Shown here piece by piece: positions 10,971-61,625 of a stretch of DNA of 62,853 nucleotides. This DNA comes from Prevotella sp. (GTDB taxonomy: Bacteria; Bacteroidota; Bacteroidia; Bacteroidales; Bacteroidaceae). The number at the start of each line of letters is the position of its first letter. Within the stretch, counting starts at the first letter, position 1. The notes below the pieces were generated by a model that was not told where the DNA came from, searched no databases, and saw only the letters and a list, made by a program, of their open reading frames with translations. The translations under genes were made by a program, and so were the position numbers. Location of the stretch: the NCBI GenBank assembly GCA_017412705.1, contig JAFPWS010000061.1:1-62853 (forward strand), read 5' to 3'.

Positions 10971-11141
10971 ATGAAGAGTGAAATAATCCTCCAAGAAGGT
11001 ATCCGTGCTGAGGCATTCACTATGTGGATGTCGCCGCCTGTGCCAATGGTTACGTTGGTGAAAACATTTGATGCCCCCGTTTGGTTAAAGTTAGCAAGAA
11101 GAGTGGTATCTGAAAAACAGGAGGTGAATGGGGATGAGTAA
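10971..11141 (+). pseudogene. N-terminal remnant of a CatA-like O-acetyltransferase
   Basis: A 56-codon frame. RAEAFTMWMSPPVPMVTLVK followed by TFDAPVWLKLARR resembles the first 45 residues of the CatA-like (chloramphenicol-acetyltransferase-fold) family of Bacteroidota, which should continue for about 160 more residues. Similarity stops near 11102 and the frame ends across the TSUP start codon (TAA at 11139-11141). It keeps its own promoter and start codon, so it may now act as a leader peptide translationally coupled to the TSUP gene. The family call rests on recall of the motif, not on a search. Confidence 0.5.
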
Positions 11142-11862
11142 CATAGTGATAGCCATATTTCTGCTGAGTATCGGAGCCAGTTTTGTGCAACGCACCACAG
11201 GCTTTGGCTTTGGCATCTTCATCATGACGATGCTGCCGTTCTTTCTGCCAACATACGGCGAGGCCACAACCCTCTCAGGACTTCTGGCCATTACCACATC
11301 GGCTGTCATTGTGTGTCGACTGAAAGCCTATGTTACTTGGAAACGGCTTTGGCCGATACTGCTGACGTTTATGGTTGTTTCGACAATAGCCATTTTTGCC
11401 TTGACCCGTATAGAAGACCATATCTTGAAACGGATTCTGGGTGTGGCTTTGATAGTCACCAGTGTTTACTTTGCGCTGTTCAGCCAAAAGATCAAGTTGC
11501 CGACAACCAAGAAAGTGCAGGTAGGTGCTGGTACACTCAGTGGACTGATGGGAGGCTTCTTTGGAATGCAAGGCCCGCCTGCCGTGCTCTATTTCATCCA
11601 GTCGGAACCCACCAAGGAGCACTATATGGCGATGGCACAGACCTACTTTCTGATTGGCAACGTGATGATGACTTTTGTTCGCGCCTTTAACGGTTTCTTC
11701 ACCACGACCGTGATGACAGATTATTGTTTCGGACTTGGTGGAGTCGTCATCGGCACAAATTTGGGAGCCTATGTCTTCAAGCACATTCCCAACCGCATCT
11801 TCCGATACATTGTCTATGCCTATATCGCAGTGAGCGGTGTGATTATTCTAATGACAAATTGA
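11128..11862 (+). CDS. TSUP-family (TauE/SafE) membrane permease, copy A
   Basis: A 244-residue, roughly eight-helix integral membrane protein. The N-terminal repeat has GASFVQRTTGFGFGIFIMTM and the second half has GTLSGLMGGFFGMQGPPAVL, the paired glycine-rich motifs of the TauE/SafE sulfite and organosulfonate exporter family. The alternative start is ATG at 11134, two codons in. A copy with about nine-tenths protein identity lies at 60890-61624. Here the gene sits between two truncated genes and is transcribed from the promoter of the first. The transported anion cannot be inferred. Confidence 0.85.
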   Translation: MGMSNIVIAIFLLSIGASFVQRTTGFGFGIFIMTMLPFFLPTYGEATTLSGLLAITTSAVIVCRLKAYVTWKRLWPILLTFMVVSTIAIFALTRIEDHILKRILGVALIVTSVYFALFSQKIKLPTTKKVQVGAGTLSGLMGGFFGMQGPPAVLYFIQSEPTKEHYMAMAQTYFLIGNVMMTFVRAFNGFFTTTVMTDYCFGLGGVVIGTNLGAYVFKHIPNRIFRYIVYAYIAVSGVIILMTN

Positions 11863-11864
11863 AT

Positions 11865-11957
11865 ATGGTAATGCATGTAACCACCAGTTTCCACCTGCAT
11901 AGCGGTTGTTGCCTCACTTACCGTCAATTCACCTGTATGTTTCAATCCGAGCTCCAT
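11865..11957 (-). pseudogene. Two gene stubs: ygjP-like start and thioesterase N-terminus
   Basis: Directly after the TSUP stop, bases about 11865-11881 match the first codons of the ygjP-like gene that follows the second TSUP copy at 61626 (ATGGyAATrCAkGTAAC), but the similarity ends there. From 11882 the minus strand reads, from ATG at 11957, MELGLKHTGELTVSEATTAM. This looks like the start of a hotdog-fold thioesterase of the fluoroacetyl-CoA thioesterase type, cut off after about 25 residues. A deletion seems to have joined the two. The thioesterase identification is by recall. Confidence 0.45.
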
Positions 11958-20910: not shown

Positions 20911-20943
20911 GCCGTCGTAAATGTAAATTTACGGCGGTTTTTT
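20911..20943 (+). terminator. Rho-independent terminator after the M13 gene
   Basis: The stem CCGTCGTAAAT/ATTTACGGCGG is followed by a run of seven T, 27 bp after the M13 stop. Confidence 0.85.
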
Positions 20944-20965: not shown

Positions 20966-20973
20966 TAACTTTG
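20966..20973 (+). promoter_or_regulatory. -7 box of the kinase/AAA/FHA/PP2C operon
   Basis: TAACTTTG followed by CA, with a TTTG at 20941-20944 suited to the -33 position. It lies about 25 bases before the ATG at 20999. Confidence 0.7.
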
Positions 20974-20998: not shown

Positions 20999-21931
20999 AT
21001 GATAAACGATAACAACTCGAATATGGACAGGACGCAGAGGACGGTGCGTCCACAACAGCTGCAAAAGGAAAAAGTTCTCCAGCATGAAGATCAACCCATG
21101 CAGCAACAGCAGCAACAGGCAGGTGGCAAGGTATGTCCCTTCTGTGGTACAGTAAATGACCCTGAGGCGATGTTCTGCGCTCAGTGCGGTCAGCCAATCA
21201 GCAAGGCAAGTTGTCCTCACTGTGGGGCGGAGATAGACCCTGACGCTGACTATTGCGAGACCTGTCATCACTATATTCGTAAAGATGTCTGTTCGTTCTG
21301 TGGTGCCCATCTGTCAGGCAATGAAGCCTATTGTCCTGAGTGTGGCAGTCCGAGGGGTGGGCTGGTATGTCCTACATGTCATACGCTGAATGAATTCTCC
21401 TTCTGCAAGAAGTGCGGAACAGCCCTGACGGAAGAGGCCCGCATGATGGTGAAGGAACTGCAGAAGAATCCTGACTACCAGAACCTGATGGAAATTGTGC
21501 AGGACTTTGCCAAGTTGGAGAACGCCTTGCCTTACAACTCAGAACGTGACATCATTCGTGAACAGATGAATATCAAGTTGCGTGAGCGTGTCCTGACGCT
21601 TCTGGCCCAAGACGAGGGCATCGAGAATCCTGTTATCTCAAAGCCCGAGTCGAAGCGTATGACGAAGGAAGAACTGGAAGAGCAGCGCGCAGCCAAAATC
21701 AGAATGTTGTCGGCTATCTTGGATAAGCTGGCAGTACCTACCACCACGTCGCCAGCGAAGGCACGCAACTTCGCCATGGCCAGCAAGCCTGTGGGTGTTC
21801 GTCTGGCATGGGTGTGCAACTTCAAGCACGCTATGCACAGCAGTCCCTGTGGTTGTGCCAAACCTCAGATGGGTGGCAAGTGGGTTGTGTTAGGTAAGAA
21901 CAATAATGCTGAAATTAAAGATGACAAATAA
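20999..21931 (+). CDS. Tandem zinc-ribbon protein, first gene of the phospho-signalling operon
   Basis: A 310-residue cytoplasmic protein with a Gln-rich N-terminus and four successive zinc ribbons, each made of two CxxC knuckles: CPFC...CAQC, CPHC...CETC, CSFC...CPEC, CPTC...CKKC (about residues 44-145). A helical middle follows. The C-terminal module RLAWVCNFKHAMHSSPCGCA may form a further metal site. No enzyme motif is present, so a scaffold or binding role is likely. It starts the operon and is 3 bp from the kinase gene; two later genes also begin with a zinc ribbon. Confidence 0.85.
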   Translation: MINDNNSNMDRTQRTVRPQQLQKEKVLQHEDQPMQQQQQQAGGKVCPFCGTVNDPEAMFCAQCGQPISKASCPHCGAEIDPDADYCETCHHYIRKDVCSFCGAHLSGNEAYCPECGSPRGGLVCPTCHTLNEFSFCKKCGTALTEEARMMVKELQKNPDYQNLMEIVQDFAKLENALPYNSERDIIREQMNIKLRERVLTLLAQDEGIENPVISKPESKRMTKEELEEQRAAKIRMLSAILDKLAVPTTTSPAKARNFAMASKPVGVRLAWVCNFKHAMHSSPCGCAKPQMGGKWVVLGKNNNAEIKDDK

Positions 21932-21934
21932 ACT

Positions 21935-24895
21935 ATGGACGAGACCATTAGAAAGCCAGAATTAGTTACGTCTTCAACCATTCGTGTGGCAGAGCCAGAG
22001 AAGAATGCTTCCGACCTTGAGCAAACAATACGCCCCAGTAGCAAGGAAACCAGCCATACTGGTGGCGACGTGGAGTTCCTGCTGAAAGGAAGAATCTATC
22101 ACAGCATCAAGTGTCTGAGCGACAACTCAGGTGAGGCGCAGGTGTTTCTGGTGGAAGGCGAGGAAGGCGAACGCGTACTGAAGATATACTATCCTAACTT
22201 TACCATTAAGAAGACGCTCATGCGCATCATCCAGAACTTCAATATGGAGATGATAGTCAGAGTGGACGACTATGGCAAGACGTACATGGACGGCAAAAAC
22301 CGTGACTATGAGCTGATGGAGTATTTCCGTGGCGGTACGCTGAGCGAGTACGACTTGGATGGCGACTTCAACCAGTTCCGTCGTATTGCCCTGCAGGCTG
22401 CCGCTGCTCTTGCCCTTTGTCATAATAGCAACATCATTCACAAGGATATTAAACCAAGTAACTACTTTTTCCGCGACAAGGACCACAAGGAAGTAGTTCT
22501 GGGTGACTTCGGAATCTCCAGTATACTGGAAGGTGACGAGAAGTTGCATCGTACGACACAGGCCCGCACACCAGTATACGCTGCTCCTGAGATGTATAAC
22601 GACGTCATTGACGGTGAGGTGGAAATCACGCCTGCTGTCGACTTTTATTCGTTGGGTATCACACTGATGACCCTCTGGTTAGGTGAGAATCCGCTGAGTC
22701 AGAATGAGCGTGTCATGATGCGTAAGAAGAACGAGGGGCGTCTGCCACGCATCAACGAGCTGCCAGACCGTGTGAAGATGATTGTGCAGGGTCTGACATC
22801 TGTCAATCCTCAGACCCGTTGGGGCTACGAAGAGGTGGAGCGCTGGTTCCTTGGCGAGGATGTGAAGGTAGACATGTCGTCACCTATCCTGAAGTACCGT
22901 AGCTTCATTGTCGACCCAGAGCGCAACTTGGTGGCTGACAACGTACACGAGCTGATACCTCTGTTGCTGGACAACGAGAGACTGGCTATCAACTACCTGT
23001 ATAACGGACGTATAGCAGGTTGGCTGGAGCAGTGTGGCAACGTGAAGCTGAGCTCTGCGGTGAAGGACATTGTCGTCAATCGCTATCCTGCTGACCAGCG
23101 GGCTGGACTGATGGCTGCTGTCTATGTGATGGAGCCTACCTATCCGTATAAGGATGTGAGAGGCAATCTGTGTGACGATATCCATAGTGCCACGATTTCC
23201 GTTCTGAGCTATCAGGAGGAATACGTGCTGGCATTGAGGAATCCCAATGACCGCTTCTATCTTTATCTGGAGTATCACTCCAAGGCAGACGTCAATCGCA
23301 TTCGGTCCTACTTCGCTCCTGACAGCGATTTAGATAATCGCATCGCCATTCTGAAGCTGGCCTACGAGGTAGATCCGGAGATTCCTTTCCTGGCGAAATA
23401 TCCGTCGTCGAACCTGACGGAGATTATCCGTTCCTTTGGTTACGAGAATTGTACGGAGGACGACTGGCTGAGTCTGAGTGACGGACGCTTCCTTTCGTGG
23501 ATGTATAGTCATGAAGACCATATGGCCTGCGAGGCTCTGCGTATCATGACGGCTGACAAGAAACCATCGCGCTCATTGGGTTATAAGGTTCTTTATAACA
23601 TTGACCGCGATGCGGCCTATGACCTGAAAGACGCCGACTCTCCCTATAAGGTGGGTGAGGTGCTGCGCGAGGACTTGAAGTCATGGCAGGATCTGGACGA
23701 CCAGGCCTATCGTGAGAAGGTGGCAGACTATAGTGATCAAGACGGACGTTTCTTCTATTTCGCACAATTGCACGGATGGTATGAGCAGATTAGCAACGCT
23801 CGTGCCTGCTTCGATATGAAGAGCGACGAGAACAAGGAGCGTCTGGGAGCCTATGACCTCAGAACGGCAGCCTACCGCTTCTGTCGTCTGTTAGGTGTCA
23901 CACCTTCCTATCTGCTGGAAGACGGTACGGAGCTGAAGTCAGGCTCCGGCTTTGAAACGGCAGCCTATCGTCCTCTGTTGCTGACGGCTATCAAGCATGG
24001 CTCGTTGAGCCAATGGCTCTCGGTGTTCTACCATGAAGACCCCACTCAGGACTTCAGCGAGCAGTACAGCTATGAACGAAAGCTGGAGGAGTGGATTATC
24101 CGTTTGGGCGAGATAGACCAGAACCAGAAATATTATAAGCGTTATGGCAATGCAAAGGAAGAGACGGCTCAGAAATATGCTGAGGTGCGCAAGGGTTTCT
24201 ATCGTGCCAAGGCCAAGGAGACTCGTTGGCGCATTACCTTCTATGGTCTTTGCGGCTTGTGGATTCTGCTGCTGTTGCTATGTGGCGTATCAGGACGCGA
24301 CTACCTGTTCCGTCATTCATTGCTGGCCATTGGTTTGCCAGTAGGCGGTATGACGGCTGTCATCGTTGCCCTGCGTGCTTACTTCCGTGGATATGGTTTC
24401 GTGATGTCGTGCCTGTGGGGCCTGTTGGGTTTGATATCTTCATGGATTCCCATTAGCGTGCTCAGATTGGTTGACGGTTCTTATCCCAGCCTGTTCGTCC
24501 CTGCAGTCATCGTGCTGACGCTGATTTATATGGCCATCTGCCATGTGACAGACTTCCGCAGTGACACCCAGGGTGACAACCAGCTCATAAACGAGGTGAT
24601 GGAAGACGACATCAAGTCGACGATGCTGGAGCCTCTCTATTACACCTTCAAACAGAAGTCCTTTAAGTTCAAAGGCTCTAAGTTTGGTATGCTGGACGAC
24701 GTGGCGAATCAGGTGAGATCAATCAGTGGCGAATCAGTGCTACATTATATATTATGGAGTGCAATGGTATGTATGCTCGTGTTGGAGATGATAGTGTTCA
24801 GTCCTAAGTTGCTGAACTATAACAATCCGGACTTCGACAATATGCGAGTAAGCCCAACTGATGTTGTGAAACAAATACAAAAGGATGTAGAGTAA
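21935..24895 (+). CDS. Membrane-anchored Ser/Thr protein kinase
   Basis: A 986-residue protein. The kinase domain spans about residues 50-315: VLKIYYPNF supplies the beta-3 lysine, HKDIKPSNYFF the catalytic loop (near residue 168), LGDFGISS the DFG magnesium site (near 190) and APEMYN the APE motif, so it should be active. A long helical region without a known motif follows. From about residue 764 there are four or five membrane helices (FYGLCGLWILLLLLCGVSG onward), with a last one near LHYILWSAMVCMLVLEMIVF. The hydrophobic part lies at the C-terminus, so the kinase domain is cytoplasmic. The PP2C encoded four genes downstream is the natural antagonist. Confidence 0.9.
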   Translation: MDETIRKPELVTSSTIRVAEPEKNASDLEQTIRPSSKETSHTGGDVEFLLKGRIYHSIKCLSDNSGEAQVFLVEGEEGERVLKIYYPNFTIKKTLMRIIQNFNMEMIVRVDDYGKTYMDGKNRDYELMEYFRGGTLSEYDLDGDFNQFRRIALQAAAALALCHNSNIIHKDIKPSNYFFRDKDHKEVVLGDFGISSILEGDEKLHRTTQARTPVYAAPEMYNDVIDGEVEITPAVDFYSLGITLMTLWLGENPLSQNERVMMRKKNEGRLPRINELPDRVKMIVQGLTSVNPQTRWGYEEVERWFLGEDVKVDMSSPILKYRSFIVDPERNLVADNVHELIPLLLDNERLAINYLYNGRIAGWLEQCGNVKLSSAVKDIVVNRYPADQRAGLMAAVYVMEPTYPYKDVRGNLCDDIHSATISVLSYQEEYVLALRNPNDRFYLYLEYHSKADVNRIRSYFAPDSDLDNRIAILKLAYEVDPEIPFLAKYPSSNLTEIIRSFGYENCTEDDWLSLSDGRFLSWMYSHEDHMACEALRIMTADKKPSRSLGYKVLYNIDRDAAYDLKDADSPYKVGEVLREDLKSWQDLDDQAYREKVADYSDQDGRFFYFAQLHGWYEQISNARACFDMKSDENKERLGAYDLRTAAYRFCRLLGVTPSYLLEDGTELKSGSGFETAAYRPLLLTAIKHGSLSQWLSVFYHEDPTQDFSEQYSYERKLEEWIIRLGEIDQNQKYYKRYGNAKEETAQKYAEVRKGFYRAKAKETRWRITFYGLCGLWILLLLLCGVSGRDYLFRHSLLAIGLPVGGMTAVIVALRAYFRGYGFVMSCLWGLLGLISSWIPISVLRLVDGSYPSLFVPAVIVLTLIYMAICHVTDFRSDTQGDNQLINEVMEDDIKSTMLEPLYYTFKQKSFKFKGSKFGMLDDVANQVRSISGESVLHYILWSAMVCMLVLEMIVFSPKLLNYNNPDFDNMRVSPTDVVKQIQKDVE

Positions 24896-24896
24896 T

Positions 24897-27800
24897 ATGA
24901 TATGTGAACATTGTCATAAAGAAAATCGTTCAATAGCCAAGTTTTGCAAATGGTGTGGTAAGCCGCTCGTTTCCCAAAACGTGCTGGACCGCATGGTGGG
25001 ACTCAGCGACGTGAAGCAGCAGCTGAAGACGGTGGTTGACACCTATACCTATTTGCACTCTCGTAAGGACATCATGAATGTCCGTCTGAGCGTCAATGCC
25101 ATAATCATTGGTGAGACAGGTACTGGTAAGACCGCTTTGGCAGAGGTGATACGTGACTACTTCTATCAGCACAAGATAATAGACAAACCCAAGCTGACGA
25201 TGGTGGATGCTGTCGACTATCAGCGTTTTGTTGACAAGTGGGATGATAACGTCAAGAAGGCTAAGGGCGGCATTCTTTTCTTTGACAATGTGCAGAAACT
25301 GCTTCCCGACCGCTACTCCAATCAGGTCAATCCGCTTGACAAGTTGTTTGTCGAGATGGACAAATGGAATGAGAATCCTATCGTCATGATTGCTGGTCTT
25401 CCAAAGGGCTTGGACGACTTCCTAACCGCAAATCCTGCAGCGCAGAACCGCTTTAAATATACTTTCCGTCTGCCCACTCCCGGCTATCAGGAACTGTGCG
25501 ATATCTGTAAGATGGAGCTCCGCACCAAGTATGGTATTGCTGCCTATACAGCCGAGGCTGACCATAAGCTGTTGCGCTTCTTCCAATATCAGTTGAAGAT
25601 TAAAGACGACACCTTTGGTTTCTCACATGTGGCAGTGAAGACAGCTGAGGATATTTTCACCTCGTTCATCAGTCGTGGTGCTGATGCGGTGATGGTAGAA
25701 GAAGCTGACATTCGTGGCTATGTGCCAGAGGAACGCTCGCTGGAGGATATTCTCGGCGACCTCGACCAATATATTGGTATGGATGAGGTGAAGAAGGCTG
25801 TTCGTGAGATAGCCTTTACCGTTCATAACAGCGTACAGCGTGCCCAGCGTGGACTGGGTGAGCAGGAGAAGGCAGGCATCCATATTGTGCTGACAGGTAA
25901 TCCTGGAACAGGTAAAACGACGATAGCCCGTAAGCTGGGTGAAATATTGGAAGCCATAGGCTACTTGGACAGTGGCCACGTTGTAGAGGTCGACCGTTCG
26001 AAGATGATAAGCCCCTATCAAGGTGAAACACCCAAGGTGGTAGACCGTTTGTGCGACAAGGCCATGGGTGGTATCTTGTTTGTCGATGAGGCCTATACGC
26101 TGGCTCCAGTCAGCCAGAGTGGAGATCGCGACCAGCAGGGCACACAGGCTCTTGAACAGCTGATGAAGCGCATGGAAGACGATCGTGGTAAGTTCGTCGT
26201 CATTGCGGCAGGTTATCGTCAGGAGATGGACAACCTGTTCCGCATCAATCCCGGTGTGCGTAGCCGTTTCAGCTATTTCCTGAACATCGACGACTATACA
26301 CCCAACCAGCTCTTCGAGATTATGCAAGTCTTTGCCAAGGAGAAGAAGTATCTGTTTACGAAGGAGTCAGAGGAACTGGCGCTGAAGATGATAACAGAGC
26401 TTTACAACTCGCGTGATAAAGATTTTGCCAATGGTCGTACTATGCGTCAGTTGTTTGATAAGATATGTTCCAAGCAAGCCGAACGTTTGCAGAAGGGCGA
26501 CATGTCGGCATTGACCAACGAGCAGCTGATGACCATCGATGTGGCAGATATACCATACGAGGCTCCCAAGGCTGTCGACTATACAGAATGCCTTGCTAAG
26601 CTCAACGGCATGGTTGGCCTGGCTGCTGTCAAGAAGGAGATTTCCAATCTGGCAGCATTCCTCAACCTGCAGATTCGTCGTGGCGAGACCAATACCTTCC
26701 AAGGCAAGCATTATGTCTTCACAGGTAATCCAGGAACAGGTAAGACTACCGTTGCCCGCATTATGGCAGACGTCTTCCGCACGCTGGGCATCCTTTCTCG
26801 TGGTCAGCTGATAGAGGCCGATCGCAGTAAGCTGGTGGCAGGCTATTCTGGTCAGACAGCCATCAAGACCAACCAGTTGATAGATTCGGCGATGGGTGGT
26901 GTCTTGTTCATTGATGAGGCCTATACCTTAAAGTCGAGCGATGGCGACAGCTTTGGTTCTGAGGCAATTGATACGTTACTCAAGCGATTGGAGGACGATC
27001 GTGGTAAGTTCATCTGTATCGTGGCTGGCTATACAGACCAGATGCATGACTTCATCGATACGAACCCAGGATTGAAGAGCCGATTCACACAGACCATCCA
27101 TTTCGACGACTATACACCCGATGAGCTGACGGAGATATTCATTAATCTGGCCAAGGGCAAGAACTTTACTGTTGACGAAGAGGCGCAGGGTGCTGTGCAT
27201 CGTCAGTTCGAGCAGTTGTACCTGCGGCGCGATAAGAACTTTGGCAATGCCCGAGAGGCACGTCGTATTTTCGACCAGGCTGTCGAGAAGCAGAGTCAGC
27301 GTCTGGTCAGCATGATGGGTAGTCCTGACTTTAAGGATGACGACATGTATAAAATTACGCCTGCTGACCTGGAGGTTGCCCAGAGCGAGAAGGCTCGTCC
27401 GTTGGATGAGGTTCTCAATGAACTCGACGACTTCATCGGCATGCGTTCGGTAAAGAACATGATACGTCGTCTGGCTGTACAGAGCATGTTCATGAAACAG
27501 CGTGCTGCAGCAGGTGCTGGTAAGGTGCAGCAGATGGCCATGAACTTTGTGCTGACAGGCAATCCTGGTACAGGTAAGACCTCCATAGCCCGTAAGATGG
27601 GTGAGATACTGCAGTCGATGGAGATTCTACCCACCAACCGCGTCATAGAGGCCAGTCGTGCTACGCTGGTCGGCAAGTATATGGGTGAGACGCCAAAGAT
27701 AGTCAACAACATGTGCGACAAGGCCATGGGCGGTATCCTCTTCATTGACGAGGCTTATACGCTGTCGTCAGAGAACGACCAGTATGGCAAGGAGGCAATC

Positions 27801-28208
27801 GATACGCTGATGAAGCGCATGGAGGATGATCGTGGTAAGTTCGTTGTGATAGCAGCAGGCTATCGTGACGACATGGAAACATTCCTGACCGTCAATCCTG
27901 GATTGGCCAGTCGCTTTACCCATAAGATGCATATCGACGATTATAATGAGGACGAGCTGTTGGCTATCTTCAAGAAGATGGCCGGCAAGGATAACTATAA
28001 GTTGTCGCCAGAGGCCGAATTCAAACTCATGGATCTCATCTGCCGTAAGGTCATCAACAAGAATGAGGCCTTTGGCAATGCCCGTGAGATGCGTAATATG
28101 CTGGATGCAACGATTCAGCAGCTCTCGATGCGTGTCAGTCAGTTGCCGCAGTCCGAGATTACGCAAGAGACTTATCAATTGATTTTGCCAGAAGATATTA
28201 GAGAGTAA
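24897..28208 (+). CDS. Zinc-ribbon protein with four AAA+ (CbxX/CfqX-type) modules
   Basis: A 1103-residue protein. A zinc ribbon (Cys 3, 6, 17, 20) is followed by four AAA+ ATPase modules with Walker A at about residues 72 (GETGTGKT), 333, 609 and 887 (GNPGTGKT). Walker B is ILFVDEAYTLA, VLFIDEAYTLK and ILFIDEAYTLS in modules 2-4, but ILFFDNVQKLL in module 1. Module 1 therefore lacks the catalytic Glu and may not hydrolyse ATP. Modules 2-4 resemble CbbX rubisco activase and EccA of type VII secretion, which remodel partner proteins. EccA has one such module, so tandem copies are notable. It starts 1 bp after the kinase stop. Confidence 0.9.
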   Translation: MICEHCHKENRSIAKFCKWCGKPLVSQNVLDRMVGLSDVKQQLKTVVDTYTYLHSRKDIMNVRLSVNAIIIGETGTGKTALAEVIRDYFYQHKIIDKPKLTMVDAVDYQRFVDKWDDNVKKAKGGILFFDNVQKLLPDRYSNQVNPLDKLFVEMDKWNENPIVMIAGLPKGLDDFLTANPAAQNRFKYTFRLPTPGYQELCDICKMELRTKYGIAAYTAEADHKLLRFFQYQLKIKDDTFGFSHVAVKTAEDIFTSFISRGADAVMVEEADIRGYVPEERSLEDILGDLDQYIGMDEVKKAVREIAFTVHNSVQRAQRGLGEQEKAGIHIVLTGNPGTGKTTIARKLGEILEAIGYLDSGHVVEVDRSKMISPYQGETPKVVDRLCDKAMGGILFVDEAYTLAPVSQSGDRDQQGTQALEQLMKRMEDDRGKFVVIAAGYRQEMDNLFRINPGVRSRFSYFLNIDDYTPNQLFEIMQVFAKEKKYLFTKESEELALKMITELYNSRDKDFANGRTMRQLFDKICSKQAERLQKGDMSALTNEQLMTIDVADIPYEAPKAVDYTECLAKLNGMVGLAAVKKEISNLAAFLNLQIRRGETNTFQGKHYVFTGNPGTGKTTVARIMADVFRTLGILSRGQLIEADRSKLVAGYSGQTAIKTNQLIDSAMGGVLFIDEAYTLKSSDGDSFGSEAIDTLLKRLEDDRGKFICIVAGYTDQMHDFIDTNPGLKSRFTQTIHFDDYTPDELTEIFINLAKGKNFTVDEEAQGAVHRQFEQLYLRRDKNFGNAREARRIFDQAVEKQSQRLVSMMGSPDFKDDDMYKITPADLEVAQSEKARPLDEVLNELDDFIGMRSVKNMIRRLAVQSMFMKQRAAAGAGKVQQMAMNFVLTGNPGTGKTSIARKMGEILQSMEILPTNRVIEASRATLVGKYMGETPKIVNNMCDKAMGGILFIDEAYTLSSENDQYGKEAIDTLMKRMEDDRGKFVVIAAGYRDDMETFLTVNPGLASRFTHKMHIDDYNEDELLAIFKKMAGKDNYKLSPEAEFKLMDLICRKVINKNEAFGNAREMRNMLDATIQQLSMRVSQLPQSEITQETYQLILPEDIRE

Positions 28209-28210
28209 TT

Positions 28211-28789
28211 ATGATTATTTGCCCAAGTTGTAAAGAAGAGATAGAGGACGATTCACACTATTGCGACCAGTGTGGACAAGAATTGGTCTACTGCAGTAAT
28301 TGCGGACGTGTCGGTATGGGACGCCGCTGTACCTATTGCGGTGGATTGATGATTAGCGCCGACGAAATGATGGAACAGCGTGTCGCTCCAAAGCAACAGC
28401 CGTCATTGGCTGACAGTCTGCATGTGACTATTGCCAACTCGCAGACTACGGGTGAGCCCCGCATGCCACAGTCTGCTGTCCGTAGCGGTATCCCTACATT
28501 GACACTCTATAATCCGAGTCTCGACATTCGTATTGTCGGTATTAACGGTGCTATCATTGGTCGTCGTCAGGGACCGTATGCCCAGCTGTTTGGTGGCAAT
28601 ATGTATATTTCTGGCGTGCATGCCCAGCTCATCTATAAGCCAGATACAGGTTGGTGCGTGATAGATAAGCATTCGTCCAATGGAACCAAGCTCAACCAGC
28701 GCGATTTGCTTCCTGATGTTCCTATGTCTATCAAGAGTGGTGACATAGTGACATTGGCCAACATCAATTTACAGGTGAGCGTCAATTAA
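28211..28789 (+). CDS. Zinc-ribbon FHA-domain protein
   Basis: A 192-residue protein. Two zinc ribbons come first (CPSC...CDQC and CSNC...CTYC, within residues 4-45), then a linker, then an FHA domain from about residue 105: IIGRRQGPYAQ, YISGVHAQLIY and DKHSSNGTKLNQR give the GR, S..H and SxNG phosphothreonine-binding residues. It should recognise phosphothreonine on a target of the operon's kinase. It starts 2 bp after the AAA+ gene. Confidence 0.92.
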   Translation: MIICPSCKEEIEDDSHYCDQCGQELVYCSNCGRVGMGRRCTYCGGLMISADEMMEQRVAPKQQPSLADSLHVTIANSQTTGEPRMPQSAVRSGIPTLTLYNPSLDIRIVGINGAIIGRRQGPYAQLFGGNMYISGVHAQLIYKPDTGWCVIDKHSSNGTKLNQRDLLPDVPMSIKSGDIVTLANINLQVSVN

Positions 28790-28825
28790 CACATAAAAAG
28801 ATAGTATTAAGGGATAAGAAGATTT

Positions 28826-29572
28826 ATGAGTAGAATCGTATTGACGGCAGCAAGCCGTGTAGGATGCGTAAGAACAAATAACGAGGACATGGTTCTTGCT
28901 TACGACCATTTTGTGCGTAGTGACATTTATCAGACAGAGTTTATGACGGAGAACCATGATCGCTTTGTCATTGCCTTGGCTGATGGCATGGGAGGACACA
29001 ATGCTGGCGAGATAGCCAGTTATGATGCCTTGTCGAACCTTCAGTTTTTCCTCAGTGACCTGCCTCGTGGCCTCTCTTCTGGCGAGTTTAACGAGATGAT
29101 GCTGGAGTGGCTTCACTCCATCAACCAGATTATAGACTCCAAGGGGCGTGTGAATCCTGGAATGGTTGATATGGGAACAACGTTGGTAGGTGTTCTTTTC
29201 TATAATAATAAGTATTATTGGATGAACTGCGGCGACAGTCGCCTGTACCGCTTCCGTGATGGCAGGCTGAGCCAGTTGACAACAGACCACTCCTTGAGCA
29301 ATGCCAGAGGTGAGAAGCGACATTCAAATATCATCACCAACTGTATTGGGGGTGGGTGCAAGAACTCCTATATGGATATGTTTGACTTTACGGACGATTT
29401 CCTTTCAGGCGATACGTATATTCTCTGCTCTGATGGTCTGAACGACATGGTCAGCGATGATACCATTTGCTCTTTGGTAGCTGAGGGAGCCAATGCCAAC
29501 GGACTGTGCGAGGCTGCCATTGCTGCCGGAGGTTATGATAATGTTTCTGTATGTGTTTTTAATGTGGAGTAA
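28826..29572 (+). CDS. PP2C-family Ser/Thr protein phosphatase
   Basis: A 248-residue phosphatase. LADGMGGHNAGEIAS, NCGDSRLYRFRDG, TTDHS, LCSDGLNDMVSDD and GGYDNVSVCVF are the metal-binding and structural motifs of PP2C/PPM enzymes, all intact. It has no membrane segment. It lies 36 bp after the FHA gene and probably reverses phosphorylation by the kinase encoded in the same operon. metA starts 3 bp later. Confidence 0.93.
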   Translation: MSRIVLTAASRVGCVRTNNEDMVLAYDHFVRSDIYQTEFMTENHDRFVIALADGMGGHNAGEIASYDALSNLQFFLSDLPRGLSSGEFNEMMLEWLHSINQIIDSKGRVNPGMVDMGTTLVGVLFYNNKYYWMNCGDSRLYRFRDGRLSQLTTDHSLSNARGEKRHSNIITNCIGGGCKNSYMDMFDFTDDFLSGDTYILCSDGLNDMVSDDTICSLVAEGANANGLCEAAIAAGGYDNVSVCVFNVE

Positions 29573-29575
29573 GCT

Positions 29576-30493
29576 ATGCCTTTAAGATTGCCAGATAAGC
29601 TGCCTGCCATAGAGCTGTTGAAGCAGGAGAATATTTTCGTCATGGACGACTCTCGTGCCCATATGCAGGATATCCGTCCGTTGAAGATTGCTATACTGAA
29701 TCTCATGCCGCTTAAGATTACGACAGAGACAGACCTGATACGACTGCTTTCCAATACACCGTTGCAGTTGGAGATTAGTTTCATGAAGCTCAAGAGCCAT
29801 ACACCTAAGAATACGCCCATCGAGCACATGATGATGTTCTACCGCGACTTTGAGCAGATGCGACTGGAGAAGTATGACGGAATGATTATCACTGGCGCTC
29901 CGGTAGAGACCCTTGAATTTGAGGATGTCAACTACTGGACAGAGATGACGGCGATTTTCGATTGGGCTCGCACCCATGTGACGAGTACCTTATATATCTG
30001 CTGGGCTGCACAGGCAGGGCTCTACTATTATTATGGAGTTCCCAAATATCCTTTGGAGAAGAAGATGTTTGGCATCTTCCCACAGTATCCCTTGGAGCCT
30101 CAACTGCCCATCTTCCGCGGCTTTGACGATGTGTTTCAGATGCCCCATAGCCGTCATACGGAGATTCATCGGGAGGACATTCTGGCCAATCCTGATTTGA
30201 CGCTGATTGCAGAGTCGCCTGACTGTGGCGTGTCGATGGTGATGGCTCGTGGAGGTCGTGAGTTCTTTATTACCGGCCACTTGGAGTATGCGCCGAATAC
30301 GCTTGACAACGAGTATAAGCGCGACAAGGATATTCGCGATGATGTAGATTTGCCCAAGAACTACTATCGTGACAATAATCCTGCCAACGGACCCTTGGTT
30401 TCTTGGCGTGCCCATGCCAATCTGCTCTATAGCAACTGGATTAACTACTACGTCTATCAGGAGACGCCTTACGATATCAATCAGATTCAATGA
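29576..30493 (+). CDS. metA: Homoserine O-acyltransferase (MetA)
   Basis: A 305-residue enzyme acylating homoserine, the first committed step of methionine synthesis. The sequence LKIAILNLMPLKITTETDLI, LEISFMKLKSHTPKNTP and FDWARTHVTSTLYICWAAQA is characteristic of MetA; the Cys in ICWAAQA is the nucleophile. Many MetA enzymes outside the enterics use acetyl-CoA rather than succinyl-CoA, so the acyl donor is left open. It is tightly joined to the PP2C gene upstream and its stop overlaps the U32 start by four bases. Confidence 0.92.
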   Translation: MPLRLPDKLPAIELLKQENIFVMDDSRAHMQDIRPLKIAILNLMPLKITTETDLIRLLSNTPLQLEISFMKLKSHTPKNTPIEHMMMFYRDFEQMRLEKYDGMIITGAPVETLEFEDVNYWTEMTAIFDWARTHVTSTLYICWAAQAGLYYYYGVPKYPLEKKMFGIFPQYPLEPQLPIFRGFDDVFQMPHSRHTEIHREDILANPDLTLIAESPDCGVSMVMARGGREFFITGHLEYAPNTLDNEYKRDKDIRDDVDLPKNYYRDNNPANGPLVSWRAHANLLYSNWINYYVYQETPYDINQIQ

Positions 30494-42592: not shown

Positions 42593-44692
42593 TCACTTCC
42601 TTCTCGCATACCATCCTCTAACGCTGTTGTTCGCTCCGTATAGGAAGCCCGTCGCTTTCATGGCGGTCGTCAGCTGTTTCATGTTTGGCTTGTCGACGCC
42701 GGTAACATGGTTTTTCAGCTCATTGAGGATGTCGACAGCACGCATAAAGTTGTCCTTGTGACGCGCTGCGGGTTCAAAGTAGGTGTTCAGCAGGATCTCT
42801 GCGGTCGACATATTCTGGAACTTCATGTTGTGTTCCGCAATCCTGTACTCCTCGGCCTTCGTGAAGTAGTAGGGCTGGTCGTGCTCCAGCTCCCAGACGG
42901 CCTGGGCGTAGAGCTGCCGGTAGTTGATGGGCGTATCGGTGTCGATGATGCCAGTCACCTCTACGCAGAGATAGCGGCGTGAACCCGTCGGGTCGTTCAG
43001 CGGCTGTCGTTCGTTAGTGGTGGCGATGAACGATGCCATGCGTGGCGTCATCACATACTGGTCTGACCGCATCCGTCTCACCTGGACGTCGCGCTCCGTC
43101 AGTATGCGCTTGATCTTCGCCTGTTCACGGTCCGTCTTGGCATTATACTCGTCGATGTTCACGAGTGCCATCCTGCCAAGCATCCGCTCCACCTGGTCGG
43201 CATTGTCGAGCTTGATGTCGTCGATATAGTATTCGCGCAATCCCATGGGAATGAGTAACTTGCAGAAGGTCGACTTATGCGTGGCCTGCTTTCCGACGAG
43301 CATGGGCACCACGCTGTTGCCGAAGTCGCGGCTCTTGCCTATCCACTGTGCCACCATGCCGAGGAACCAGCGGTGGAAGAACGGCTCCCAGTCGGGATAG
43401 TCGTTGGGCACGCGACGGGCCAGTTCGCCGATGTAGTCGTGCTTCTGGTCCCAGTTGCCGCAGCCCGCCAGGAACTCGTGTATCGGGTTGTAGCTCTTAA
43501 TAAGAGATGAACGCACGTACAACTCTATATCTATCGACCAGGCGGCACCCGCATCGATCATCTCCTCGTGGGCGATGCGTCGCAGGTCTCTGTCGGTGAG
43601 CGGCTGCCAGGGGCTGTAGTCGTGACCCTTCGGGCGGAACTCCTCGATGCGCTTCATCTCGTTGAATCTCAGGTCGTAACGACGCTCGAAGAACTCCTGC
43701 ACCTTACGGGCGATGCGCTCTTTCTCCGTCATCATCGCCATAGGCCGTCCCTCGGCGGTCTTCCCATAGACGCTGCGGAAGATGCTGCGTACATTCTCGA
43801 TGGCGATGTCGGGGAAGTAACGGGCCGAGCGAATCACCGCCGACTCCTCGGGCAGCGCCGACTTGCGGCAGTACTGTGCCAGGAGGGTCAGCAAGCCGTC
43901 TTCCTGGACGGCCTTGTCGTCCGACTCCGGCTGATAGTCGTCCATCGCCTTCTTCCTGCAGGCGTAGAAATCGGCGCGCTCCTTGTCGGCCTGCTCCTTC
44001 GGCGTGCTGCTGTCGGTATAGCCCAGCGAGTCGGTGTGGGCATGAGGGTATCTGTCGAGCGGCCCCGTCGACTTGTGGATGATCACCAGCGGCTGGGCCT
44101 CGGCATTGTAGTAGAGCTCGGCATCCTGACTCATCCTGCAGCCACGACTAAGCGACTCCTGTTTACGGCTGATCTGGCACTCGCAGAAAGCACCGTAGTA
44201 TTTGGCCGCCTGCTGTTGCGCCTCCTCCAGGAACAGCGCGTACTCCTTGGCAGTCGTCGGCAGCGCGCCGTCTTTCGTCGTGCAGGCCACCACAATCTTC
44301 AGACTTCTCCGGCTGACGCTGCGAAACGCCATCACCGTCTGTGGCAGCTGAATCGCCATGTCGCGGATGGCCTGCATGCGCTTCAGGTCCATCCCATAAT
44401 CCACCGAGAGCAGCACGAGACCTGTCGGCTCGCGGAAGTCCTCCAGGCCATGCCGCCCGAAGGTGGCCGAGAAGATGAGGTAGGGTAGTTCGTCGATGCC
44501 GTTGATACTGACTCGCTCGTTGCCAAGCTTCTGTTGTTCCAGCAGGGCCCAGGTGATGTTCGATGCCACGTTCTCCACCTGCTTGATCATGCTGTTCGAC
44601 TTCATCCTGCTGACGATCCCGTCAAGTCTGACGTTGATGGGAGTACCCATCTGTCCGTCCTTGGTCTTGATTTTAGTGATTTTATATTCCAT
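42593..44692 (-). CDS. VirE_N / VapE-type P-loop protein (BT4734 family)
   Basis: A 699-residue protein. The N-terminal 200 residues fit the VirE_N/BT4734-like domain (IRDMAIQLPQTVMAFRSVSR, then RRSLKIVVACTT). The C-terminal part is a VirE/VapE helicase-like P-loop domain: MLVGKQATHKSTF (Walker A near residue 469), MALVNIDEYNAKTD (Walker B) and ATTNERQPLNDPTGSRRYLC (sensor and arginine finger region). Related proteins occur in phages, islands and integrated elements, where they may unwind DNA for replication. ATG at 44692 is used because the longer frame starts inside the promoter box. It is bracketed by 22-bp repeat arrays. Confidence 0.85.
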   Translation of the reverse strand: MEYKITKIKTKDGQMGTPINVRLDGIVSRMKSNSMIKQVENVASNITWALLEQQKLGNERVSINGIDELPYLIFSATFGRHGLEDFREPTGLVLLSVDYGMDLKRMQAIRDMAIQLPQTVMAFRSVSRRSLKIVVACTTKDGALPTTAKEYALFLEEAQQQAAKYYGAFCECQISRKQESLSRGCRMSQDAELYYNAEAQPLVIIHKSTGPLDRYPHAHTDSLGYTDSSTPKEQADKERADFYACRKKAMDDYQPESDDKAVQEDGLLTLLAQYCRKSALPEESAVIRSARYFPDIAIENVRSIFRSVYGKTAEGRPMAMMTEKERIARKVQEFFERRYDLRFNEMKRIEEFRPKGHDYSPWQPLTDRDLRRIAHEEMIDAGAAWSIDIELYVRSSLIKSYNPIHEFLAGCGNWDQKHDYIGELARRVPNDYPDWEPFFHRWFLGMVAQWIGKSRDFGNSVVPMLVGKQATHKSTFCKLLIPMGLREYYIDDIKLDNADQVERMLGRMALVNIDEYNAKTDREQAKIKRILTERDVQVRRMRSDQYVMTPRMASFIATTNERQPLNDPTGSRRYLCVEVTGIIDTDTPINYRQLYAQAVWELEHDQPYYFTKAEEYRIAEHNMKFQNMSTAEILLNTYFEPAARHKDNFMRAVDILNELKNHVTGVDKPNMKQLTTAMKATGFLYGANNSVRGWYARRK

Positions 44693-44719
44693 TTCAGTTC
44701 CAATTAATATATCTGCCTG

Positions 44720-44727
44720 CAAAGATA
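44720..44727 (-). promoter_or_regulatory. -7 box of the VirE-like gene
   Basis: The minus strand reads TATCTTTG followed by CAG, about 27 bases before the ATG at 44692. Confidence 0.65.
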
Positions 44728-44766
44728 CGAAAAATTTTCGATATATAATGCTTTTAATTCAAATAT

Positions 44767-45109
44767 TATCTGACACTTCTTACACTTCTTGCTAAATTTA
44801 TTGAATATCAGATAATTATAAAGTCATTACCTGACACTGAACCTTACACCTAATCAAACACCTAACCCTTGCGGCATTCCTCTATTCCCATTACGAGTGA
44901 GCACCAGTTACATGCCGACAAAGCAGGAGTTACATGCCGAGAAACTACCAGTTACATGCCGAGAAACTACCAGTTACATGCCTGCAAACTACCGGTTACA
45001 TGCCTGCAAACTTTCTGAAAGCTTAGGTGTCAGGTCAAGTGTTAGGTACTTGTTTTGTAACCCTCTGTAAAACAAAAGTTAGTGTGAGAAGTGTGAGAAG
45101 TGTTAGATA
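44767..45109. repeat. Inverted-repeat structure with five 22-bp repeats
   Basis: The outer arm TATCTGACACTTCTTACACT (44767 onward) is mirrored at 45087-45109 with two mismatches. An inner arm (TACCTGACACTGAACC, 44828 onward) is mirrored at about 45022-45050. The core holds five tandem units starting at 44906, 44928, 44950, 44972 and 44994, an exact 22-bp period, sharing GTTACATGCC. No gene is seen between 44723 and 45240. The design is the same as at 7063-7476, where the arms differ in sequence but the core units are the same family. Confidence 0.85.
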
Positions 45110-45240
45110 CTTTTTATTTCAAGAGTATTTTGGGTTTATTTCTCGATATGCTCAATGATATTTTATAGCATTTTTTTCACATTTGCCATTGTTTTGGTGA
45201 AAAAGATGCTAAATCTTTTTGATAATTAATTTCTTTTGTT

Positions 45241-45248
45241 TATCTTTG
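45241..45248 (+). promoter_or_regulatory. -7 box of the AAA/DUF3226 pair
   Basis: TATCTTTG followed by CA, 13 bases before the ATG at 45262. Confidence 0.65.
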
Positions 45249-45261
45249 CAAGATAAAGTGT

Positions 45262-46359
45262 ATGGATACTATAAATATGAATGGATTTAAGAGCATACAG
45301 ATTGATAATTTCAGAGGCATCGACCATCTGAAGATAGACGATTCCTCCCGTGTCAATGTGTTCCTCGGGCAGAATGGTTATGGAAAGACATCTGTTCTTG
45401 AAGCCATATTGATTCTTGCGGGGATGTCGAATCCTGGTCTTCCTCAAAGTGTCAATATGTTAAGGTCAAGGGGTGCTGCTGGGCAGTTTTTAGATGTGAG
45501 ATACTATTTTCACAATTTGGTTTTAACAACACCTCCTGAGGTTTCGTCGGAACAAATTGATGGAGTAAAGCGACATCTGACCTTAAAGATGCCATTTGTC
45601 TTTGAAGAGCAACCACAGGTTACTACCCCAATAGGCCAAATCCAACGTTCTGATGCGATGGTTCAAGTCAATCAGGTTGAGATGGATTTTGACATTACGG
45701 CTGACAATGTTGTTAATAGGTTCAAAAGTACAATGACTTTTAATCAACAAGGGCTCATTAAGGAGAGAAAAATTGCTGAAGGTTATCAAGAGAAATTGTA
45801 TGCATCGTTGATTTCTGCAAGCCTCGCTGCACCAAATGCCGCAAGTGACTTGGCGGAATTGGTAAAACGGAAGATGAAACAAGTGGTCGTAGACAGACTT
45901 GCCTATTTTGACAGCAGGATAACCAATATTGAAGTTTTGTCTGATGGTGTTTTTGTCGGAATTGAAGGAGTTCCTGAGCTGTTGCCTGTATCCATGCATG
46001 GTGATGGTTTGTTCCGATATCTGACGATTTTGGCTGCTTCTGCCAACCCAGTTTCTAATATTCTTCTGATAGACGAGATAGACAACGGCTTGCACTATTC
46101 TGTTTATAAGAAGTTGTGGGAAGCAATTTTCGCATTAGCAACGACCACCAATAAACAAGTGTTTGTGACCACACATAGTAAGGAAACACTTGGGTATTTG
46201 AACGAGATGTTGCAAGATAATCCTATCTATAAGCCCGACTTGCGCTTATACACATTAGAGAAGACTTTGAAAAAAGGTCTTCAAGCCTATATGCTCACTC
46301 ATGAAGGGCTGAGAGGTGCCTGTGATAATGATATAGAACTTAGAAGCATTGTCCTATGA
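45262..46359 (+). CDS. AAA family ATPase, OLD/AriA-like
   Basis: A 365-residue ABC-type ATPase. NFRGIDHLKI and FLGQNGYGKTSVLEAIL (Walker A, residues 36-43) are at the N-terminus; ILLIDEIDNGLHYSVYKKLW (Walker B, near 267) and FVTTHSKETL (switch His) are near the C-terminus, as in AAA_15/AAA_21 proteins. It ends without a nuclease domain; the next gene, which overlaps by four bases, supplies a TOPRIM-like protein. This two-gene form resembles PARIS (AriA/AriB) and split OLD systems, both anti-phage. An in-frame ATG at 45277 is an alternative start. Confidence 0.88.
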   Translation: MDTINMNGFKSIQIDNFRGIDHLKIDDSSRVNVFLGQNGYGKTSVLEAILILAGMSNPGLPQSVNMLRSRGAAGQFLDVRYYFHNLVLTTPPEVSSEQIDGVKRHLTLKMPFVFEEQPQVTTPIGQIQRSDAMVQVNQVEMDFDITADNVVNRFKSTMTFNQQGLIKERKIAEGYQEKLYASLISASLAAPNAASDLAELVKRKMKQVVVDRLAYFDSRITNIEVLSDGVFVGIEGVPELLPVSMHGDGLFRYLTILAASANPVSNILLIDEIDNGLHYSVYKKLWEAIFALATTTNKQVFVTTHSKETLGYLNEMLQDNPIYKPDLRLYTLEKTLKKGLQAYMLTHEGLRGACDNDIELRSIVL

Positions 46360-46985
46360 ATAAAAGATTCCGTATTTTCGTAGAAGGCGATGCTGACAAG
46401 AAATTCCTAAGTGACTATTACCATCACCTTTTTCATGAAAAAGCCCCACAATTTAGTATCATCCACACAGGTGATTTGAAGGGGGACAAAACAGGTGGTC
46501 TCAAAAAATTGTCGGACGAAATCAACATCAGGGAAATGCACATCAATTCTGACCAAGGAGGAGTCAACCTTGTTATATTTGATGCTGATAAAGATGTTGA
46601 AACCCGTCGTAAGGAGTTGGAAGCTGTCAAGGAGCAATATCATGTGGAATTCGAACTGTTCCTTTTGCCCAATAATCAAGATACTGGTGCGTTGGAAGAC
46701 ATGTTGGAGAGTATCATCAATCCGAATAATCGTCCCATCTTTGATTGCTGGGAGAACTACGAGAAAGAATTGGTACAACTTGATATACCAGACAGGACTC
46801 CACCGCCATTGACAACCCCAGCAAAGAAGACCAAGATATATGGCTATCTTGAAGCATTGTTGGGAGAATCAAAAAGTCAGAAAGAACTGATAAAGGAGGT
46901 CAATCGCAACTACGAGCCCCCCCAGCACTGGAATCTGGATGCAGAGTATCTGGAGCTGCTGAAGGAGTTTTTAATGAATAAATAG
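46356..46985 (+). CDS. DUF3226 (TOPRIM-like) protein, partner of the AAA ATPase
   Basis: A 209-residue protein. RIFVEGDADKKFL (Glu10) and NLVIFDADKDVE (Asp76, Asp78) have the E...DxD layout of TOPRIM folds, as in the DUF3226 and DUF4435 families. DUF4435 is the AriB effector in PARIS; here the family is DUF3226 instead, so the activity may be a nuclease but is not shown. Its ATG overlaps the ATPase stop, so the two proteins should be made in fixed ratio. A decayed copy of its C-terminal end lies about 200 bp further on. Confidence 0.82.
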   Translation: MNKRFRIFVEGDADKKFLSDYYHHLFHEKAPQFSIIHTGDLKGDKTGGLKKLSDEINIREMHINSDQGGVNLVIFDADKDVETRRKELEAVKEQYHVEFELFLLPNNQDTGALEDMLESIINPNNRPIFDCWENYEKELVQLDIPDRTPPPLTTPAKKTKIYGYLEALLGESKSQKELIKEVNRNYEPPQHWNLDAEYLELLKEFLMNK

Positions 46986-47290
46986 AATAAAAGAATAAAT
47001 TGTAAAGTTAATACGATGAAGATAAGATAAAAAGACATAGATTCTACAACATCCTTGACGAGACTGAGGAAGCATAATTAGGATACTGAATCACGTCAGT
47101 TTAGACAAGGCAACTATGGCAAGAAAGGAAAAAGAACAAATACAAATGAGACAACTCAATTATCTGAAATGCAACTACGAAAATACTCAGCACCTTTTCT
47201 GGATGCAGAGTATGTGGATATTTTGAAAGGCGGATTTCTTATCACCTTCAAAAACAAAACATTAAGTGTATGTAATATAGACAAAAGAGT
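46986..47290. other. Gap with a degenerate copy of the DUF3226 gene end
   Basis: Bases about 47165-47240 repeat, with changes and frame loss, the end of the DUF3226 gene (46905-46970): CTGGATGCAGAGTAT occurs in both, and CAACTACGA and CAGCAC lie at similar distances before it. No intact gene is present. It may be the tail of a second, lost DUF3226-type gene or a duplication formed when the DUF4062 gene arrived. Confidence 0.6.
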
Positions 47291-48235: not shown

Positions 48236-48263
48236 GAGTGTTCGATTATGACTCATTATGAGT

Positions 48264-48320
48264 TAGTGGATAAATCCATTACACTTAGTTGGTAACCGCA
48301 AAGTAGTTAGTGGGTAACTC
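48264..48320 (+). repeat. Three short direct repeats upstream of the DUF2075 gene
   Basis: TTAGTGGATAA, TTAGTTGGTAA and TTAGTGGGTAA lie within about 57 bp ahead of the nuclease-helicase gene. They could be regulator sites or slippage remnants. No TAnnTTTG box is seen here. Confidence 0.4.
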
Positions 48321-48354
48321 AAAATAGATCGTTAAATAATGATTTAGACTACAT

Positions 48355-50834: not shown

Positions 50835-50850
50835 ACAAGTTAATAAAATT

Positions 50851-51024
50851 ATGATAACAACTTATGATAATGTAAACCATTTGTCGCTTAGAAATGATTG
50901 GATTGACATTGAGGCAACGAGGACGGAGAAAGATGGAGCCGAGAAGGAATATTCCGTCTCGTTGGCGAAACTGGCAGAGATGAAGAAGCGGCTCGAAAGC
51001 GGCTATACCAGTTTTTGGAGTTAA
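50851..51024 (+). CDS. Small hypothetical protein
   Basis: A 57-residue frame beginning MITTYDNVNHLSLRNDWIDI and ending in LESGYTSFWS. It lies 16 bp after the NUDIX gene and 15 bp before the Fic gene, so an operon position is plausible. Charged and partly helical, without a known motif. It contains no S/TxxxE[G/N] Fic-inhibitory motif, so it is not a VbhA-type antitoxin. Confidence 0.5.
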   Translation: MITTYDNVNHLSLRNDWIDIEATRTEKDGAEKEYSVSLAKLAEMKKRLESGYTSFWS

Positions 51025-51039
51025 AACGTAATCAAGCGT

Positions 51040-52116: not shown

Positions 52117-52158
52117 AGCCACATTTTTATACACAACCTTTTAGGGTTATGTAAAGGT

Positions 52159-60885: not shown

Positions 60886-60889
60886 CTGA

Positions 60890-61624: not shown

Positions 61625-61625
61625 A

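Follow-up and report, generated by a model that had tools for sequence, protein, structure and literature searches.

Five adjacent genes in a Prevotella-like gut bacterium encode a Ser/Thr kinase, an FHA protein, a PP2C phosphatase, an AAA+ protein and a zinc-ribbon protein, raising the question of whether they act as one system and, if so, what the kinase phosphorylates. We analyzed the whole 62,853-nt stretch of DNA that holds them (the window; Prevotella sp., contig JAFPWS010000061.1, assembly GCA_017412705.1). The open reading frames, here called P1, KIN, AAA, FHA and PP2C (Table 1), are separated by 3, 1, 2 and 36 bp, exactly as the first-pass annotation had given them. In Pfam, P1 and the FHA protein both match double zinc ribbons, the latter with an FHA domain as well; KIN matches a protein kinase domain, AAA has four AAA stretches (from the best 25 of 57 families for the AAA+ protein), and PP2C has a PP2C domain.

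Table 1. Features of the five-gene cassette and its borders, in window coordinates.
Feature	Position	Strand	Basis
Intrinsic terminator of upstream M13 peptidase gene	20911..20943	+	read from sequence
Bacteroidota-type -7 promoter element TAACTTTG	20966..20973	+	sequence
P1: leader, four zinc ribbons (three invariant), linker, C-terminal W-C-H-C-GG-W motif	20999..21931	+	Pfam ribbons
Thr15 of P1, leader motif T-[ILVM]-[RK] (RTVRP)	21041..21043	+	motif count
P1 C-terminal conserved motif region	21749..21892	+	alignment
KIN: membrane Ser/Thr kinase with low-complexity N-terminal tail, C-terminal region and TM helices	21935..24895	+	Pfam, hydropathy
KIN tail motifs ETIRK, STIRV, QTIRP (Thr4, Thr15, Thr31)	21944..22027	+	motif search
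KIN C-terminal region, ~675 aa	22868..24892	+	no Pfam match in window member
Five predicted transmembrane helices of KIN	24233..24802	+	hydropathy
AAA: N-terminal zinc ribbon and four CbxX/CfqX-type AAA+ modules	24897..28208	+	Pfam, NCBIfam, PDB matches
AAA+ module 1: Walker A present, Asn in place of the Walker-B Glu	24978..25766	+	alignment
AAA+ modules 2-4, intact motifs	25767..28205	+	alignment
FHA: double zinc ribbon and FHA domain with intact pThr pocket	28211..28789	+	Pfam, alignment
PP2C-type Ser/Thr phosphatase, intact metal ligands	28826..29572	+	Pfam, alignment
metA, flanking housekeeping gene	29576..30493	+	3 bp 3' of PP2C gene

The five genes are kept together as one unit

The first-pass annotation had claimed a single system. 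We searched relatives with the AAA+ protein and tabulated the co-occurrence of the other genes, using a six-frame profile search for all five at 103 loci (duplicate contigs L035/L156 and L037/L178 included). The order P1-KIN-AAA-FHA-PP2C was complete in 88 of these loci. Among the remaining 15, L040, L041, L042, L043, L092, L098, L099, L138 and L172 are truncated where their contigs stop, with L041 broken before its AAA+ gene and additionally lacking PP2C after FHA; L035/L156, L039 and L166 are cassettes without PP2C; and L164 and L168 are lone kinases whose genomes encode an FHA protein elsewhere. All ten distant uncut loci (L044-L047, L091 and L093-L097) carry the five genes in the same order, with proteins 27-43% identical to those of the window (34-52% for the AAA+ protein). 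L044-L047 were used in building the profiles and the other six are independent of them. Some distant cassettes hold an extra gene, such as the SUKH gene that separates P1 from KIN in L091. Among loci fetched later, L217 and L218 are complete, L216 lacks PP2C and a recognisable P1, and L219, a short contig, has the kinase and no recognisable P1. Adjacency is thus the rule in the loci found, and not a rarity among relatives.

The proteins also diverge in step. Across 45 loci, pairwise distances among the five correlate at 0.84-0.93, as against 0.75-0.90 between the five and flanking proteins, and the residuals left after regression on four flanking proteins still correlate at 0.31-0.59. We conclude that the five genes are one conserved unit.

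Genes of the SUKH (SMI1/KNR4) and DUF1963 families, which are often immunity-like, lie in or beside the cassettes of L091 (6789-7583), L092 (4665-5198; a match below the Pfam cut-off), L095 (10445-10966) and L096 (16931-17575). Directly 5' of the divergent cassette L045 is a NusG-family gene (2181-2930; KOW match below cut-off), perhaps an operon-specific antiterminator.

The TAnnTTTG promoter proposed earlier is in place (Table 1), and its pattern recurs between -250 and +60 of P1 in 73 of 77 nearer-relative loci, against 9.5 expected from mononucleotide shuffles; a terminator pattern 5' of P1 was matched in 37 of the same 77. A search of the operon for Rfam RNAs gave 0 matches. The 3' end of the proposed operon needs revision: the five-gene unit holds, but metA follows PP2C immediately and is itself overlapped by a U32 peptidase gene, so transcription probably continues past PP2C into metA and the U32 peptidase gene. 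metA is probably co-transcribed with the cassette, yet is no member of the system. It probably now lies under the cassette promoter, while in the cassette-free relatives read it has an upstream region to itself.

Active sites are intact and the first AAA+ module is degenerate

The proposed kinase with C-terminal membrane helices is borne out. KIN residues K83, D171, K173, N176, D191 and E219 are present in 100/100 aligned sequences, and hydropathy predicts five transmembrane helices. The C-terminal region that contains these helices is undescribed: other family members give weak Pfam transporter matches, each in one of 13 members, and comparison with PDB sequences gave weak matches only, to membrane proteins (best E 0.018). 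Kinases of L044-L047 have an additional C-terminal stretch beyond the last helix.

The earlier assignment of an FHA reader and a PP2C eraser also agrees with near-invariant residues in 89-94 sequences. FHA domains bind phosphothreonine. The pThr-pocket residues GR, SxxH and NG (PMC1262709) are conserved in the cassette FHA proteins (R118 in 93/94, S134 in 94/94, H137 in 94/94 and N157 in 93/94), making pThr binding a candidate function of the domain. In PP2C, D21, D53 and D203 are present in 89/89 sequences and E20 in 87/89. Four distinct cassettes (L035/L156, L039, L041 and L166) lack this gene, and a PP2C profile search of three genomes with such cassettes gave no match at all in two; the eraser thus seems dispensable.

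Three products had been said to start with zinc ribbons. All three have them, but in P1 a Gln-rich leader comes first and the ribbons start near residue 45. The 12 cysteines of three P1 ribbons are invariant in 96/96 aligned sequences, as are the C-terminal W/C/H/P/C/P/G/G/W residues. This C-terminal W-C-H-C-GG-W motif is undescribed, has no convincing match among PDB sequences (best E 0.16) and is possibly a further metal site. The AAA+ ribbon (C3/C6/C17/C20), read from the sequence, is kept in 92 of 93 proteins, with a gap in one.

A four-module CbxX/CfqX-type AAA+ machine had been proposed, and four modules are indeed present, but not four that look fit for hydrolysis. The Walker-B Glu of module 1 is missing in 93/93 sequences (position 131 is N in 89, D in 3 and S in 1); because its Walker B is degenerate (FFDN, not DE), three modules look capable of hydrolysis. 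Modules 2 and 3 have the Walker K and D-E in 93/93, and module 4 in 89-91 of 93, the remainder being gaps. Module 1 is therefore conserved and probably non-hydrolysing, as judged from the alignment. Module number varies: three in L046, L047 and L216, five in L091, L093, L095 and L217, and four in the window and most others listed. NCBIfam models spore_V_K (782.5 bits), EccA (722.3 against a cut-off of 467) and CbbX (638.2) all match above their cut-offs, with scores that sum over modules, and the best PDB matches are CbbX and EccA1.

Threonine motifs crowd the kinase tail and the P1 leader

What, then, would the kinase mark? The KIN tail, which precedes the kinase domain, gives poor alignments across lineages, yet it is rich in a short motif, T-[ILVM]-[RK]. 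Tails extracted from 99 of 102 kinases (L098, L099 and L148 were missed; L098 and L099 are in the one-per-lineage set below) gave 97 distinct sequences, in which the motif occurs 201 times against 12.7 +- 3.7 in shuffles. At least one copy is present in 89 of the 97 tails (13% expected by shuffle) and at least two in 71; in 130 of the 201 copies an acidic residue (D or E) stands two positions before the threonine. The serine and alanine versions are at chance (6 vs 7.2 and 7 vs 8.5, respectively), the reversed T-[RK]-[ILVM] is rarer than in shuffles (4 vs 13.0) and T-[FYW]-[RK] is enriched (17 vs 1.4).

Because related sequences inflate such counts, we repeated the shuffle test with one tail per lineage (n = 18), the one test that allows for kinship. 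The motif occurs 44 times against 3.4 expected and at most 10 in 1000 shuffles, with the serine version at 1 vs 3.1; 13 of the 18 lineages have it, against 3.1 expected. The five without it are L037, L038, L046, L098 and L099, among which L046 and L098 have other Thr repeats instead. Some tails repeat a unit in tandem: L096 has six copies of DKTL[KR]P, L095 has five of [DE]KT[IV]R, L045 has five of T[IV][RK]P, and the repeat in L097 is GTQRP. The L172 tail, which lies near P. communis in the kinase tree, has mostly a DDKTM-V array replacing T-[ILVM]-R. In the loci fetched after the motif had been discovered (L216-L219), 4/4 tails have it; L217 is close kin of L093, and L216 and L219 are from one genus, so these are not four independent lineages.

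P1 leaders show the same enrichment, with 37 copies against 7.1 expected from shuffles in 92 distinct leaders, and the rest of P1 is below chance (10 vs 22.2). Elsewhere the motif is at or near chance: 20 vs 20.3 in PP2C, 225 vs 218.3 in AAA, 6 vs 4.1 in FHA linkers, 101 vs 116.6 in the kinase body and 36 vs 40.9 in the first 50 residues of 516 other ORFs. Among window ORFs longer than 150 aa, the stricter [DESTQ]xT[ILVM]R[PTVASK] occurs only in P1 (once) and KIN (three times). The serine version is more frequent than expected in FHA linkers (24 vs 7.5) and AAA (282 vs 186.5), so the preference for threonine is limited to tails and leaders.

These arrays could instead be docking peptides that are never phosphorylated, serving as handles for the AAA+ pore or the zinc ribbons while the kinase, FHA protein and PP2C act elsewhere. 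We consider this unlikely. The arrays do vary by lineage (KTIR, TLKP, TQRP, KTM-V), as linear docking peptides do, and the lone kinases of L164 and L168 keep their threonine motifs, but serine does not substitute in the tails, and it is an FHA reader that demands threonine, which a docking peptide need not. Moreover, the FHA domain encoded alongside has its pThr pocket intact. The enrichment in tails and leaders lends sequence support to the earlier suggestion of a threonine-phosphorylated target, and a likely target is KIN's own tail together with the leader of P1.

The cassette is patchy and in Prevotella mostly occupies one site

The AAA+ protein had matches in 50 of 201 genomes of the family, and the cassette is present, whole or in part, in at least 15 of these 201 (11 closer relatives, including the window's own genome, and 4 divergent ones), a count from loci that were read, which take in part of the weaker AAA+ matches. 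A profile of the kinase C-terminus matched at least 7 of 395 phylum genomes and at least 6 of 393 order genomes, the window's own in each, with at most two candidates per genome scored; it also matched 4 of 79 and 6 of 80 genomes in two distant families. With the window's own kinase C-terminus as query, 60 of the 150 genus genomes matched (17 of the 68 good ones). A scan of GTDB contigs gave 137 relatives, of which the 80 kept are nearly all labelled Prevotella or Prevotellaceae. The cassette is thus patchy.

Most Prevotella cassettes share one site, with an ABC-F/M13-peptidase pair on one side and metA-U32 on the other. We queried 13 cassette-free genomes of the genus for metA, of which 11 were positive and 10 were read. 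M13 and metA are directly adjacent in six of these sites, 2-4 kb of other genes lie between them in two, and in two no ABC-F/M13 occurs in the stretch read. A kinase tree of 42 rows, with several long branches unsure, falls into three clades: Prevotella with sister genera, mixed Bacteroidales, and outer Bacteroidota. Old, mostly vertical inheritance with many losses may account for these data.

We rejected plasmid or phage carriage, for which only partial or divergent matches were found: none in 72,556 plasmid records covers 80% or more of the kinase (three records match, mainly in the kinase domain), and 11 AAA+ matches in phage records are all below 60% identity, two of them covering 80% of the query. 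Elsewhere in the window, 42596-54342 looks like a defence or mobile island, with a VapE-like protein, an AAA_15/AAA_21 ATPase and DUF3226, DUF4062, a Schlafen-group-3 helicase, Fic and DUF2357/PD-(D/E)XK. Near the window ends are two TauE/SafE-family genes with 84% DNA identity (11125-11881 and 60887-61642) and a second, inverted pair of stretches that are 72% identical (1529-2065 and 61625-62161).

Patchiness is one of several features that would suit an anti-phage or conflict system, in which a regulated kinase, phosphatase and AAA+ protein form a defence module like the kinase-kinase-phosphatase (KKP) prophage module or MADS. The kinase domain matches the defence-kinase models mad6 (107 bits) and PD-T4-6 (up to 75 bits), AAA+ modules score up to 87 bits against models of TRIP13, IetA and mad8, KKP likewise unites kinases, an FHA domain and PP2C (PMC11341870), and there are the SUKH/DUF1963 genes in or beside L091, L092, L095 and L096. 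We nevertheless find a defence role decidedly improbable. The kinase matches are confined to the kinase domain, on which ground MADS/PD-T4-6 defence was rejected, and at 75 bits the NCBIfam MAD6 match falls far short of its 460-bit cut-off. Most Prevotella loci occupy the fixed housekeeping site, no defence gene was found on reading the ORFs of the two cassette-free sites with inserts, the plasmid records yielded no match over most of the kinase, and cassettes without PP2C misfit a phosphatase that restrains a toxic kinase. A nutrient-sensing operon that regulates the flanking metabolism would account for the 3-bp gap to metA and for a metA-U32 linkage conserved in most Prevotella cassettes, but is very improbable, as this pair stays together in relatives without the cassette and was not found beside distant cassettes, which adjoin other genes.

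A proposed threonine-phosphorylation switch around an AAA+ machine

We lean, with modest confidence, towards a self-contained threonine-phosphorylation switch built around the cassette's own AAA+ remodelling machine, with marking of the tail, FHA docking and reset by PP2C. KIN would sense something through its C-terminal membrane half and phosphorylate the T-[ILVM]-[RK] threonines of its own, probably disordered, N-terminal tail and of the P1 leader. The FHA subunit would read these pThr sites and, together with P1, bring the zinc-ribbon AAA+ protein to the membrane, the contacts being made through the ribbons of FHA, P1 and AAA. There, modules 2-4 would spend ATP in remodelling a putative membrane client, with module 1 binding ATP without hydrolyzing it. 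PP2C would then remove the pThr marks and reset the switch, a step that, to judge from the PP2C-less cassettes, is not always encoded.

More tentatively, the cassette could signal in the manner of a receptor-kinase tail, in which a multivalent, lineage-variable pThr array on the kinase tail lets an FHA/zinc-ribbon adaptor assemble the AAA+ remodeller at the membrane; we hold this possible, short of probable. If it is true, this would be an unnamed system, rare and spread over several Bacteroidota families, with two undescribed conserved regions in the C-termini of the kinase and P1. On either reading, a single small operon would supply the whole circuit of writer, reader, eraser and motor, no type VI sheath having been found, and the circuit would give a role to a multi-module CbxX/CfqX AAA+ protein with a conserved, probably non-hydrolysing first module. 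Because the predicted phosphosites are visible in the sequence, the circuit is directly testable with peptides and purified domains.

Comparison with known systems

The first-pass annotation had raised the possibility of an already named system. Among the literature matches listed, judged by title, start of abstract and passages in a corpus that lacks most subscription papers, none appears to describe the five-gene set; no paper was found on Prevotella with a Hanks-type kinase, FHA and phosphatase together. Clusters of FHA, kinase and phosphatase genes occur in M. tuberculosis (PMC1262709). The zinc-ribbon PP2C model PRK14559/NF011149 resembles the cassette in its parts, with P1, FHA and PP2C each matching some of it, but at 37.6, 19.9 and 68.2 bits against a 374-bit cut-off, and those parts are separate proteins here. 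Zinc-ribbon and DZR domains do occur on bacterial PP2C (PMC12088040).

TerY-P triads place a kinase beside PP2C, with a vWA protein. We rejected them, finding no vWA among the 37 of 49 window ORFs scanned (the five cassette proteins, the AAA+ one by its best 25 of 57 families, and 32 others); TerD and ESX/EssC-type families were also absent from these 37, as had been claimed. The GAP1-N2 neighbourhoods (PMC7159879) pair an active PP2C with an active kinase that has a zinc ribbon or TM helices, and include a vWA protein and GTPases in a kinase-PP2C-vWA theme restricted to actinobacteria; in the cassette no vWA or GTPases were seen, and AAA+ and FHA genes are core. MoxR-vWA ternary conflict systems were rejected because the AAA+ protein matches CbxX/CfqX best and no vWA was found; the bpMoxR model is just over its cut-off for one distant AAA+ protein (L044, 29.4 vs 27 bits).

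KKP, too, groups Ser/Thr kinases, FHA and PP2C within a small cluster, but its phosphatase is followed by two short kinases to which FHA and cold-shock domains are fused, it is borne on prophages, and the text that describes it (PMC11341870) names no AAA+. The cassette has one long membrane kinase, a separate FHA protein and an AAA+ core; with a single kinase gene and the order kinase-AAA+-FHA-PP2C, KKP was rejected. By model scores, the cassette AAA+ groups with EccA, CbbX and SpoVK (CbxX/CfqX), from which it differs in its 3-5 modules per chain, N-terminal ribbon, module 1 without Walker-B Glu, and kinase, FHA and PP2C partners.

The earlier interpretation is partly supported: the unit is conserved, its enzymes keep their catalytic residues, and the set is distinct from TerY-P and ESX. 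It missed the closest functional analogue, the threonine-phosphorylation pathway of the type VI secretion system (T6SS; PpkA-PppA-Fha), which brings together a membrane Ser/Thr kinase, PP2C, an FHA reader and an ATPase. Kinase, PP2C and FHA are likewise encoded together in the cassette. A role in T6SS regulation was rejected: the sheath protein VipB/TssC was found in 0 of 150 genus genomes and 0 of 1 own genome (86% complete), and an E. coli control matched. The AAA+ of the T6SS pathway is ClpV. The cassette differs in its CbxX/CfqX AAA+, its extra zinc-ribbon proteins and its candidate pThr sites on the kinase tail. In A. tumefaciens, PpkA phosphorylates the membrane protein TssL, and Fha then binds pThr14, a residue of TssL's cytoplasmic N-terminal domain (PMC3953482). 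By analogy, the cassette, as a phospho-switched AAA+ system, would work like this pathway while being no part of one.
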